A DNA stretch of 64,000 nucleotides from Aquificota bacterium (GTDB lineage Bacteria; Aquificota; Aquificia; Aquificales; Aquificaceae): the NCBI GenBank assembly GCA_018771605.1, contig CP076324.1, forward strand, positions 1,651,700 through 1,715,699, read 5' to 3'. The position numbers were made by a program, and so were the translations under genes. Every line of letters starts with the position of its first letter. Position 1 is the stretch's first letter. Below the pieces are notes generated by a model. The model worked only from the letters and a program-made list of their open reading frames with translations. It made no database searches and was not told where the DNA came from. Positions 36,293-40,056 of this stretch are shown one piece after another.

Positions 36293-36295
36293 AAA

Positions 36296-36312
36296 AGCCC
36301 CCGGCGGGGGCT
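36296..36312. terminator. Bidirectional terminator between tkt and the subtilisin gene
   Basis: AGCCCCC-GGC-GGGGGCT, a 7-pair GC-rich stem. On the minus strand it is followed by TTTTTT (complement of the A-run 36291-36296), an ideal terminator for the protease operon; on the plus strand the T-rich tail comes 6 bases later. Confidence 0.85.
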
Positions 36313-36318
36313 AAAGGT

Positions 36319-38490
36319 TTATTTTTTGAAGGTCCTCCTGAAAGCTATAAGTATTGGTGGCAAGAGCCAGAGGAGGACATTGAGAGGATTGGAACCTGTA
36401 GCCATGGAACATCCACCACCCCCACCAGAGGAGGAGCTACTCACAGAGAAGTTAAAGATGGCATAGCAGCTTTTGTCCGAATTCATACTTATGGTGCATT
36501 GGGAACCCATTCCACAAGATTGACAATCCCCGCCCCAACCGCCAAAGGTGGAGCCGGCGTTTGGTGTAGCGGTAAGGGTGACAGAAGTGTTTGGATCAAA
36601 GTTTGCAGAACATATGGTGCCACAGCTTATGCCAGCTGGATTGCTTGTTATAGTGCCAGAACCGGTGCCAGATTTGCTAATGCTTAGTATGTATTTTGAC
36701 CTTACAAAGTATGCAATACATGCTTTGTTGTTGTTGGCAGTTATGGTGCATATGGGATTATTGCCGCAGCTTTCACAATCTCCAAGCCAGATTTTGAAGG
36801 CAGAAATAGAATCTGGTGTGGCTTGTAATGTTATAGAAGAGCCTTCGTTAAATATGCCATAACAAGTATCACCACAATTTATTCCTGTAGGATTGCTTAT
36901 TATAGTGCCTTTGCCTTCGCCACTTTTTATTACAGCGACTACAACCTTATCAAACACAGCTACACATTTTTTGTCTGAATTCATAACAATCTGACATGTG
37001 GTGCTGGTTCCACAAGCTGAGCAGTCTCCCGACCAGCCTTTGAAGGATGCTCCAGTGTAAGGTGTTGCTGTCAGTGTGGCTGTACTGCCATTATTGTAAA
37101 CACCGACGTTACCATCTACAGCACCCAAACCCCTTACATCTACAAGCAGAAAGTAAAAAGTTCCTGGCTGACAATCGCTAATCGTTAAAGCCTTATAGGC
37201 GTTTATCCTTCCGCCAGTTATGGTCTTTCCGTTGAGGGAAGAAAGAGGATCCACACCCTTCATTATCCTACACTTTAGCTCTCTCCATGTATAGCTTGAG
37301 TTTTGAGCCTTCAAAAGGGCTGCAAGGCCTGCCACATGAGGTGAAGCCATAGAGGTGCCACTAAACTCACAATATTGGTAACCATTTAAGGTGTAGCACG
37401 TATAACCAGTGAATTGCAAATTAGGCACAGTACTCAAAATATCTACCCCCGGCGCTCCCACATGGACAGAGTTCCTTCCGTAATTGGAAAAGCTCGCCAA
37501 AAGGTCGTTTTGGTCTGTTGCAGCAATGGAGATTATATTTTCCAAATCATAGGAAGCTGGGTATAAAGGAATGAGGTCGTTGTCATTAGCTTCATTCCCA
37601 GCTGCCGCAACAAACAGTATGCCCGCATTCTTTGCGCTTGCTATGGCATCCCTTAAAGCTTGGCTATAGCCGTAGCCTCCCCAGCTTGCGTTTATGATGT
37701 GGGCACCCTTCTGTATGGCGTAGTTGATGCAGTCTATGGCATCTGAGGTGGTGCCTGAGCCATCGCTACCCATAAACTTAAGAGCCATTATCTTGACCTG
37801 CCAATTTACACCCACTACGCCAACGCCGTTATTACCCACCGCACCAATTGTTCCAGCCACATGTGTCCCATGCCCGTTGTCATCCATAGGGTCGTTTGGA
37901 TTGGATGCACCTGTAATACAGTTTTTGCCATAATATCCAGTGGCTGGGTCCTTCCACATATTATCCTTTAGGTCCGGGTGGTTATAGTCCACCCCCGTAT
38001 CTATTACCGCCACCACCACGCTTTGGCTTCCTCTGGTAATGTCCCATGCCAATGGAGCCTGTATTTTTGCAAGGCCCCAAAGGTTATTCCACAGTGGGTC
38101 GTTTGGTATTGTGGCTTTTATGGTGTATATGTAGTCTGGTTCTGCGTATTCCACATCGGGCCTTTTTCTTAGCTCTGCGATAGCTTCATGGGGAGTCTTA
38201 TCTTTTGGCAACTTAAACACGTAGATATTTAAGTTTCTAAACTCCTTTATGCTTTGAAGCCCATACTGACTTTTAACTTCTGATAGAGCTTGCAATCTAA
38301 ACTGACCTCCTTTGAACTTTACTATAACCCTATCTAAGGCATACCTTGGCACTGGCGTGTATTGAGGTCCGAAAGATGTAGATCTATTAGTCTGCGCTTT
38401 GCTAATTTGACTACCTTGAGAGCTAAAAAGTGTTCCCAAAATTACAGCAAAAAGCCATAATAAAAGCCTTGATGTGCGTTTAAGCTTCAT
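36319..38490 (-). CDS. Secreted subtilisin-like serine protease (S8) with Cys-rich repeats and a C-terminal sorting tail
   Basis: A 723-residue preproprotease. A signal peptide (MKLKRTSRLLLWLFAVILGT) and an I9-type propeptide (about 45-125) precede the S8 domain. The triad is Asp164 (AVIDTGVD), His207 (NGHGTHVAG), Ser380 (SGTSMASP), with Asn299 (AAAGNEAND) as oxyanion residue. Three InlB-B/bacterial-repeat-like modules follow (about 455-515, 520-596, 602-680), each with four to six Cys. The C-terminus has a serine/glycine linker, GGGGGCSM (Cys694), a membrane helix and RRTFKK, like Cys-type C-terminal sorting signals. Start at 38490 is based on GGAGG 6 bases upstream. Likely an extracellular, surface-held thermostable protease. 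Confidence 0.9.
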   Translation of the reverse strand: MKLKRTSRLLLWLFAVILGTLFSSQGSQISKAQTNRSTSFGPQYTPVPRYALDRVIVKFKGGQFRLQALSEVKSQYGLQSIKEFRNLNIYVFKLPKDKTPHEAIAELRKRPDVEYAEPDYIYTIKATIPNDPLWNNLWGLAKIQAPLAWDITRGSQSVVVAVIDTGVDYNHPDLKDNMWKDPATGYYGKNCITGASNPNDPMDDNGHGTHVAGTIGAVGNNGVGVVGVNWQVKIMALKFMGSDGSGTTSDAIDCINYAIQKGAHIINASWGGYGYSQALRDAIASAKNAGILFVAAAGNEANDNDLIPLYPASYDLENIISIAATDQNDLLASFSNYGRNSVHVGAPGVDILSTVPNLQFTGYTCYTLNGYQYCEFSGTSMASPHVAGLAALLKAQNSSYTWRELKCRIMKGVDPLSSLNGKTITGGRINAYKALTISDCQPGTFYFLLVDVRGLGAVDGNVGVYNNGSTATLTATPYTGASFKGWSGDCSACGTSTTCQIVMNSDKKCVAVFDKVVVAVIKSGEGKGTIISNPTGINCGDTCYGIFNEGSSITLQATPDSISAFKIWLGDCESCGNNPICTITANNNKACIAYFVRSKYILSISKSGTGSGTITSNPAGISCGTICSANFDPNTSVTLTATPNAGSTFGGWGGDCQSCGMGSQCTISMNSDKSCYAIFNFSVSSSSSGGGGGCSMATGSNPLNVLLWLLPPILIAFRRTFKK

Positions 38491-38501
38491 AACCCACCTC
38501 C

Positions 38502-38828
38502 CTACCATATTCTATAAATCCTATCAGGTTCTACATACTCAACCTCTTTTCTTTCAGAGAGTTTTTTCATCAGCTCTTCCTGCGATGCCCTTTCTGGCAC
38601 TTCCACCACATACATGTTTAAGTCTTCAATAACCTTTACAAGCCTTAGTCCATACTGGCTTATTATTTCCTTCCTCTTTTCTTCTGGCACGTCCTTCTTA
38701 AACTTTATTATCAGCCTTTGGGATGTTTTCATAGGTACTTCTCCAGTGTTTAAAGGTCTGCTTGTGGCACAGCCTTGGCTAAAAAGGGTGAAGCCAAGCA
38801 AAAGGGCTAAAAGCAAGCTTTTAAACAT
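38502..38828 (-). CDS. Free-standing subtilisin propeptide-like lipoprotein
   Basis: A 108-residue protein. A signal peptide with lipobox FSQGC (Cys20) is followed by an inhibitor-I9-like domain (QRLIIKFKKDVPEEKRKEII ... VEYVEPDRIYRIW). This domain matches the propeptide of the neighbouring protease (RVIVKFKGGQFRLQALSEVK ... VEYAEPDYIYTI) in pattern and length. Stand-alone I9 domains act as inhibitors or folding chaperones of subtilases; membrane anchoring of one is unusual. The ATG 38828 is chosen for its GGAGG spacing. It lies 11 bases before the protease start. Confidence 0.8.
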   Translation of the reverse strand: MFKSLLLALLLGFTLFSQGCATSRPLNTGEVPMKTSQRLIIKFKKDVPEEKRKEIISQYGLRLVKVIEDLNMYVVEVPERASQEELMKKLSERKEVEYVEPDRIYRIW

Positions 38829-38830
38829 GA

Positions 38831-39355
38831 TCACCTCCTTCCATACCTTCCCATAGTTTGCCCTTGTCCTATTACATGTCCCTGCATCTTGCTTTCCACC
38901 TCCCTCCTTGTGGCACCGGGCCTCAGGCCTAGGCTTTCCACATCAAGGGCATAAACCTTTATGTAATATCTATGAGTATGCCCACGAGGGGGACAGGGGC
39001 CACCATAGCCCACACGGCCAAAATCGTTAATACCTTGTTTTATACTTCCAACCTCACTCCTTTTGGGAAAGTTCTCCTGCAAACTTGTTTGGCTTGCGGG
39101 AATATCATAAACTATCCAGTGGGTAAAGGTGCCAACGGGCGCATCTGGGTCATCCATGATAAGCACAAAGGACTTGGCGTTGCTTGGCTGTCCAGACCAT
39201 TTAATCTGAGGAGATACATCTTCTCCATCACAAGTATATTTGCGAGGTATATCTTGACCTTCTTTGAAAGGAGCTTCTACCTTCATGGCTTCCCTCCCAA
39301 GGCTGTAATTGATAAAAAGTAAAGCAAAAATTATGGCAAGCAATGCCTTTTTCAA
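38831..39355 (-). CDS. Exported PEBP/RKIP-family protein (YbhB/YbcL type)
   Basis: A 174-residue protein with a signal peptide (MKKALLAIIFALLFINYSLG). The PEBP fold shows KYTCDGEDVSPQIKWSG, LIMDDPDAPVGTFTHWIVYDIP and YGGPCPPRGHTHRYYIKVYAL, all family hallmarks. Bacterial members are of unknown function; eukaryotic and some bacterial members inhibit serine or carboxypeptidases. The TTG at 39355 is chosen because GGAGG lies 7 bases upstream and the signal peptide begins there; a GTG-initiated or upstream ATG frame would add 14 implausible residues. Two bases separate it from the propeptide-lipoprotein gene. Confidence 0.85.
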   Translation of the reverse strand: MKKALLAIIFALLFINYSLGREAMKVEAPFKEGQDIPRKYTCDGEDVSPQIKWSGQPSNAKSFVLIMDDPDAPVGTFTHWIVYDIPASQTSLQENFPKRSEVGSIKQGINDFGRVGYGGPCPPRGHTHRYYIKVYALDVESLGLRPGATRREVESKMQGHVIGQGQTMGRYGRR

Positions 39356-39393
39356 GACCCACCCTCCAAGGTTTATTATATACCAAAGTCCTA

Positions 39394-39912
39394 TCATTTA
39401 TATTCTTTACCATTCCATTTCAGTTTACGATAATTACCATTACTGTCCATTACAATAAGGTCATACCACCCGTAGCTTTTGCTTTTTATTATTCCAATCT
39501 TAGGTTCAGGCAAAACAAAAGCAAAGTTTATTGGGCTTAGTTGACCCTTTTTATTTATATAAATCTCAACAAAGCATCCTAAGGACCCGCAATAATATGT
39601 ATGGTAAAAATAGGCGATAACATCCATTATACCGTCTCCATTGATATCCTCTAATGCTATAAGAATTTCCACTTTTTGTTTTGTAAGTTTTTCTGCCTCT
39701 TCAATATCCTCTTTCTCCAATTCTCTAACTAAATTGCGTTCATAAGAATATTTAGTGGCAGAAAAGTCTAACCATTTGATATGTTTGGTATTAATCTGCG
39801 TTCCCTTATTTTCAGCCAACGCTGTTTGGCTTGCAGTTAGGACAAACAGCAATAGAAATAAAGCTACTCTGTATCTTCTGAAAATCCCTAATGCTTCCCT
39901 TATCCCTCTCAT
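39394..39912 (-). CDS. Exported protein of unknown function
   Basis: A 172-residue protein with a signal peptide (hydrophobic 16-30, cleavage after TALA). The middle holds DINGDGIMDVIAYFY, a calcium-loop-like DxNxDGxxD sequence as in FG-GAP/dockerin motifs, then a pair of cysteines (YYCGSLGCFV) and a C-terminal segment KLKWNGKEYK. I do not recognise a family. It begins the operon that continues into PEBP, propeptide and subtilisin genes, after a 38-base gap. Confidence 0.75.
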   Translation of the reverse strand: MRGIREALGIFRRYRVALFLLLFVLTASQTALAENKGTQINTKHIKWLDFSATKYSYERNLVRELEKEDIEEAEKLTKQKVEILIALEDINGDGIMDVIAYFYHTYYCGSLGCFVEIYINKKGQLSPINFAFVLPEPKIGIIKSKSYGWYDLIVMDSNGNYRKLKWNGKEYK

Positions 39913-39937
39913 TTTATTACCCCTCTTTTAAACTAAA

Positions 39938-39943
39938 ATTATA
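39938..39943 (-). promoter_or_regulatory. -10 box of the subtilisin operon
   Basis: Minus-strand TATAAT (39943-39938), 25 bases before the first ATG, with GAGGGG as ribosome binding site. No clear -35. Confidence 0.45.
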
Positions 39944-40056
39944 TCCAGGAATTGTTAAAATTTTGTTAGGGCTTAGTTATAACTCATTTTTAGCAATGGG
40001 TTTAGGTATAAGCTTATTGAGTTTCCCACACAGTACCTCTCCGAAGAGCCTTGTAG

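Follow-up and report, generated by a model that had tools for sequence, protein, structure and literature searches.

Why should a subtilase that already carries its own propeptide be encoded directly behind a separate gene for what appears to be a second one? The question is raised by a locus of a heat-loving Aquificota bacterium (Aquificaceae; assembly GCA_018771605.1), the genome of which is a single contig of 1.72 Mb. The locus lies within a stretch of 64,000 nucleotides (contig CP076324.1, positions 1,651,700 to 1,715,699), referred to here as the window; coordinates are positions of the window unless stated otherwise. An earlier note on this DNA had described one minus-strand operon of four genes separated by 38, 2 and 11 bases. 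All four genes, running from 39912 down to 36319 and encoding a 172-aa exported protein, a PEBP, a 108-aa lipoprotein and a 723-aa subtilase, were reproduced with exactly these gaps, counted from starts preceded by Shine–Dalgarno-like sequences. The starts supported by ribosome-binding sites were TTG at 39355 (PEBP), ATG at 38828 (lipoprotein) and ATG at 38490 (subtilase), with AAGGAGGTGATC immediately 5' of the lipoprotein ATG. The features are as follows.

36293–40055, no strand assigned: four-gene block, absent in congener G047, where transketolase and valS lie about 20 bases apart
39397–39912, minus strand: exported orphan protein, 172 aa, no family above cut-off
38834–39355, minus strand: PEBP of YbhB/YbcL type within the block, TTG start, signal peptide
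38505–38828, minus strand: lipoprotein, 108 aa, stop at 38502–38504; lipobox LFSQGC (Cys20), one propeptide, chain end EPDRIYRIW
36322–38490, minus strand: subtilase, 723 aa, ATG at 38490, stop at 36319–36321; signal peptide, cis propeptide, S8 domain, three repeats, tail
36325–36429, minus strand: sorting-tag-like tail, the last 35 aa of the subtilase (GGGGGC, hydrophobic stretch, RR)
36296–36312, minus strand: terminator-like hairpin 3' of the subtilase stop, between the convergent transketolase and subtilase genes; consensus match only; across the region, shuffled sequence gave at least as many hairpins
L140:4632-8874 (G000:C1:830631-834873), outside the window: type II secretion system (T2SS) operon with a myxosortase-like protease

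The lipoprotein consists of one propeptide alone, with no protease domain. The fervidolysin-type prodomain family PF22148 matched almost the whole mature chain (E 3e-13; 50.3 bits versus a cut-off of 21), whereas the Pfam Inhibitor_I9 model (PF05922) scored 20.5, just below its gathering cut-off of 21.2; its earlier description as a free-standing I9 propeptide was thus correct as to the propeptide and not as to the I9 label. Aligned with the N-terminal part of the subtilase, the lipoprotein showed 36% identity over 109 aa (E 6e-17), a match centred on the propeptide and far beyond chance, and the neighbour's cis propeptide was the one most similar to it (37% identity). Near the N terminus, a lipobox pattern of the PS51257 type matched at Cys20. 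A single-sequence AF2 model had a core pLDDT above 90, and its top structural matches (Foldseek, VIA-align) were subtilisin-bound propeptides (1scj_B, Z 9.5; 3cnq_P and 1spb_P, Z 9.4), with POIA1, a free-standing fungal inhibitor on subtilisin BPN', in fifth place (1v5i_B, Z 8.9). The fold match by itself is weak evidence, because unrelated ferredoxin-like folds reached Z 7 to 8.7; together, fold and sequence argue strongly that the lipoprotein is a propeptide.

For the position of the chain end, the reference was the BPN' propeptide, the last residue of which (77) is the P1 position. In that propeptide, Glu69 and Asp71 cap enzyme helices (PMC6993865). The lipoprotein keeps the helix-capping pair as EPD, followed by six residues to the C terminus; this spacing equals that from Glu69/Asp71 to residue 77 and makes the C terminus the P1-equivalent residue. 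The register rests on sequence spacing, because the last three residues of the model are of low confidence. Among 11 free-standing propeptides, nine ended 0 to 4 residues past the P1-equivalent point and two ended 8 to 10 past it. An inhibitor supplied ready-made, in already cleaved form, would be expected to end in this way. The P1-equivalent residue itself differs, being Trp in the lipoprotein and Lys in the cis propeptide of the subtilase, which counts against an inhibitor.

That the subtilase has its own propeptide, as had been claimed, was confirmed by matches to PF22148 (3e-13) and PF00082 (2e-64), followed by three PF18998 repeats (InlB-type B-repeats). The motifs of the catalytic triad are intact (VVAVIDTGV, HGTHVA and GTSMASP for D, H and S), and the closest solved relative is deseasin MCP-01 (3vv3, E 2e-80). 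The B-repeats are Cys-rich (GDCxxCG; window:36450-37130 and L002:1159-2220), and repeats of this kind recur in several exported proteins of the genome and the family with an otherwise different architecture. The C-terminal tail matched the JDVT-CTERM model weakly, at 13.8 bits versus a curated cut-off of 27. Similar tails were found on Aquificota subtilases of three further genomes (G101, G017 and G023) and on paired subtilases of another phylum discussed below (G396 and G393). The T2SS operon of the genome comprises GspE, two unassigned genes, GspK and an Rce1-like intramembrane protease, the gene of which overlaps the end of gspK. The best NCBIfam models for this protease were of the myxosortase family, all below cut-off, and no curated sorting-protease cut-off was reached in the genome (Mrt_core, 47.5 versus 100; MrtJ, 38.2 versus 75); EExxxR-like and HxxxN motifs are legible in its sequence. 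MrtJ-type matches, likewise below cut-off, were seen in 49 of 64 family genomes, and in G101 a subtilase with such a tail adjoins GspE and GspD genes. MYXO-CTERM proteins are cut by such a protease and use the T2SS to reach the surface (PMC11980579). Given this precedent, the sorting-tag-like tail and the myxosortase-like protease in the T2SS operon make surface export of the subtilase likely by analogy.

Within its own phylum, the free-standing gene was found once. No other free-standing homologue was detected among 136 genomes at E 0.001, all other matches being N-terminal propeptides of long S8 frames. Two short frames with PF22148 matches were rejected as free-standing genes. One, of 99 aa in G077, turned out to be the beginning of a subtilase gene with a broken frame (L054:4706-6390), apparently split between propeptide and catalytic domain; the other, of 179 aa in G001, did not reach the cut-off and had no S8 neighbour. 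The four-gene block occupies a site that is empty in congener G047, because transketolase and valS adjoin there and the window's valS leader, TATAATCCTTTCTTTATG, recurs there unchanged; in the other congeners seen, different genes come after transketolase. As a separate observation, two propeptide-like domains stand in tandem within one subtilase gene in G349 and G208 (L129:4159-6168 and L130:268-2277), an arrangement from which a separate propeptide could have split off.

A scan of 391 genomes for free-standing PF22148 frames revealed a few more. In G242, of another phylum, the gene of a single-propeptide lipoprotein (lipobox IIQGC) shares one base with that of a subtilase having its own propeptide, and 7 of the 12 genomes of that phylum contain a free-standing gene. 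In at least five (G242, G391, G396, G397 and G393) it lies directly before a propeptide-bearing S8 gene; in G398 the S8 reading after it is broken, and in G392 the stretch after it is masked. The pair comes right after GspL/GspM-like T2SS genes in G396, G397, G393 and G392, and Pfam searches covering one or two such loci confirmed GspM and GspK, with GspL below cut-off. Most free-standing propeptides of this phylum have no lipobox pattern and would reside in the periplasm in soluble form. As a further observation, subtilases of this phylum (L132-L135 and L138) have a divergent His motif, HGT[RFL][IV][SC]GI, and GTSF in place of GTSM.

The free-standing genes of this phylum form a clade (support 0.996) distinct from the cis propeptides that these genomes also encode, with that of G242 outside it; because they form a clade of their own, the pairing is old there. 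The window's copy grouped beside Aquificaceae cis propeptides in the propeptide tree (0.62, weak) and for this reason probably arose separately. The pair is unlikely to have been transferred from the other phylum, as the catalytic domains there are 26–49% identical to that of the window's subtilase, versus 51–56% for its three nearest family members; the propeptide tree, with its weak support, also points away from it.

Elsewhere in the scan, the free-standing propeptide gene of G222 overlaps that of a 1184-aa S8-like protein (L126:1163-5094) in which neither a cis propeptide nor recognisable D/H motifs were found and which is possibly a pseudoprotease. G221 contains an orphan 105-aa propeptide ending at the P1-equivalent residue (L124:5292-5609), with no subtilase in its surroundings within the fetched locus; a search of two genomes of its phylum added nothing. 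A short PF22148 frame of G201, truncated by a contig end, was rejected on the grounds that it continues into an S8 domain. Matches in a plasmid collection were cis propeptides of Priestia S8 proteases, plus one Natrinema match in an unannotated record.

Our preferred reading, to which we give a probability of about 60%, is that the lipoprotein is a resident periplasmic, stand-alone inhibitor derived from a propeptide, which rebinds the neighbouring subtilase if this becomes active prematurely. The subtilase would cross via Sec in zymogen form; the cis propeptide would fold and inhibit it briefly. This protection in cis would be lost once the propeptide is cut and degraded, possibly with the enzyme still in the periplasm, where its C-terminal membrane tail would hold it ahead of surface transport. 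The lipoprotein, anchored in a membrane leaflet facing the periplasm, would rebind the active site by its pre-formed C terminus, with Tyr-Arg-Ile-Trp at P4–P1, thereby shielding envelope proteins; enzyme already on its way to the surface would escape it. In favour of an inhibitor are the cis propeptide and triad motifs kept by its partner, as well as the recurrence of the pair, in G242 as a clear lipoprotein; the occurrence of the arrangement in one genome only within its own phylum counts against it, as do the missing lipobox in most free-standing propeptides of the other phylum and the below-cut-off scores of the tail and of the myxosortase-like protease. There is precedent in a hyperthermophilic propeptide that inhibits its cognate enzyme tightly and selectively (PMC10580911). 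Lasting inhibition by the lipoprotein is not guaranteed, because propeptides can be degraded by their enzyme.

The earlier note had envisaged a wider, self-contained system in which all four genes belong together, the PEBP is a second candidate inhibitor, and membrane-anchored immunity or chaperone proteins perhaps protect the cell from its own enzyme. The tight co-directional arrangement agrees with this, and some eukaryotic PEBPs are inhibitors of serine proteases or carboxypeptidases, although a PEBP domain does not imply inhibition. The window's PEBP is the usual YbhB-type gene of the bacterial family (PF01161, 3e-47; TIGR00481 above cut-off), present in 38 of 64 family genomes. At the 19 loci inspected in relatives it never stood beside a subtilase and, as read from the sequences, it often adjoins SCO1- and PCuAC-like genes. 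On this gene context its role as an inhibitor was rejected, and it is probably not part of the protease function. The 172-aa protein is an orphan with no homologue in the family's genomes and no family match over a cut-off (AF2 pLDDT 46), and neither gene travels with the propeptide–subtilase pair in the other phylum. We regard a four-gene system with two inhibitors as highly improbable. What survives of the claim is the idea of the lipoprotein as an inhibitor or immunity protein for the neighbouring exported subtilase, which is well supported by its sequence, fold, chain end and the recurrence of its pairing; likewise, when conservation in relatives was checked, the group of four genes was not retained, and the pair of propeptide and subtilase was, in another phylum.

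Two further explanations concern the lipoprotein itself. It might serve mainly as an intermolecular chaperone that folds the subtilase in trans, with inhibition secondary. Subtilase propeptides are stated to be foldases in mesophiles (PMC10580911), and the free-standing propeptide of G222 overlaps an S8-like gene with no detected cis propeptide; that protein, however, has no recognisable D/H motifs and may not be a working protease. Because the paired subtilases of the other phylum, like that of the window, retain their own propeptides, a folding helper seems unlikely. The lipoprotein could also be a remnant with no specific role, left when a propeptide was duplicated or when a tandem-propeptide gene such as those of G349 and G208 broke up; its closest match is the cis propeptide next door, and a single genome of the phylum has it. 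The intact frame, the strong ribosome-binding site, the lipobox and a chain that stops precisely at the P1-equivalent residue argue against such a leftover, and an identity of just 37% to its neighbour implies that the lipoprotein has persisted for long. The pair has also recurred independently in another phylum, where the free-standing genes make up an old, conserved clade; we consider this explanation quite improbable. Returning to the periplasmic inhibitor, we tentatively extend it, at somewhat less than even odds, to a general pattern in which T2SS bacteria with surface subtilases have repeatedly and independently split off a propeptide as a periplasmic guard module, lipid-anchored in some lineages.

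Stand-alone propeptide inhibitors, and lipoprotein inhibitors encoded directly before protease genes, are already known. POIA1, yeast PBI2, Arabidopsis SPI-1, TgMIC5 and Plasmodium SUB1-ProM are stand-alone I9- or propeptide-like inhibitors (PMC6993865) that share with the lipoprotein a small, separate gene product and the subtilase-propeptide fold; the SUB1-ProM gene also adjoins subtilase genes. These are eukaryotic and not lipoproteins, whereas the window's protein is bacterial and a predicted lipoprotein; unlike POIA1-type inhibitors, it shows clear homology to the cis propeptide of its neighbour, shares an operon with it and ends at the P1-equivalent residue. Potempins of Tannerella forsythia are reported each to inhibit specifically the coexpressed KLIKK protease (PMC7296668) and, as here, are small lipoproteins encoded directly before an exported protease. 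Propeptide homology is not reported for them in that paper, whereas the window's lipoprotein is a propeptide homologue, and the KLIKK proteases, from a member of the Bacteroidota, use T9SS-type secretion, compared with a probable T2SS for the window's subtilase. PopD of Myxococcus xanthus restrains the secretion of PopC and is removed by regulated degradation (PMC6434023); the likeness lies in a separate partner protein complexed with a subtilisin-like protease ahead of release. The cis propeptides of fervidolysin, pernisine and BPN' have the same domain family (PF22148) and fold as the lipoprotein, but in the window an extra copy is a separate, predicted lipid-anchored gene product. In the MYXO-CTERM, JDVT-CTERM and GlyGly-CTERM systems with T2SS (PMC11980579, PMC6219818), exported proteins likewise end in a Gly-rich/Cys, hydrophobic and Arg tail; compared with the MYXO-CTERM and JDVT-CTERM systems, both the tail of the window's subtilase and the myxosortase-like protease of the genome score below the curated cut-offs.

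A literature search, the coverage of which left out most subscription journals, returned no bacterial stand-alone subtilase propeptide; neither the lipoprotein form paired with a tail-bearing subtilase nor the T2SS-linked form of the other phylum was found in the searched literature. An inhibitor of this kind would extend stand-alone propeptide inhibitors, the examples of which found in the literature are eukaryotic, to bacterial lipoproteins, and could furnish heat-stable inhibitors of cognate subtilases. On its way out through the T2SS, a folded protease crosses the periplasm in an activatable form, and only rarely is a dedicated protein offered as the reason why the cell survives this. A guard of the propeptide type, linked genetically to the enzyme, would answer in a testable way how cells survive their own exported protease, and the presence of the same gene pair beside secretion machinery in an unrelated bacterial group suggests a dedicated safety catch for such an enzyme.
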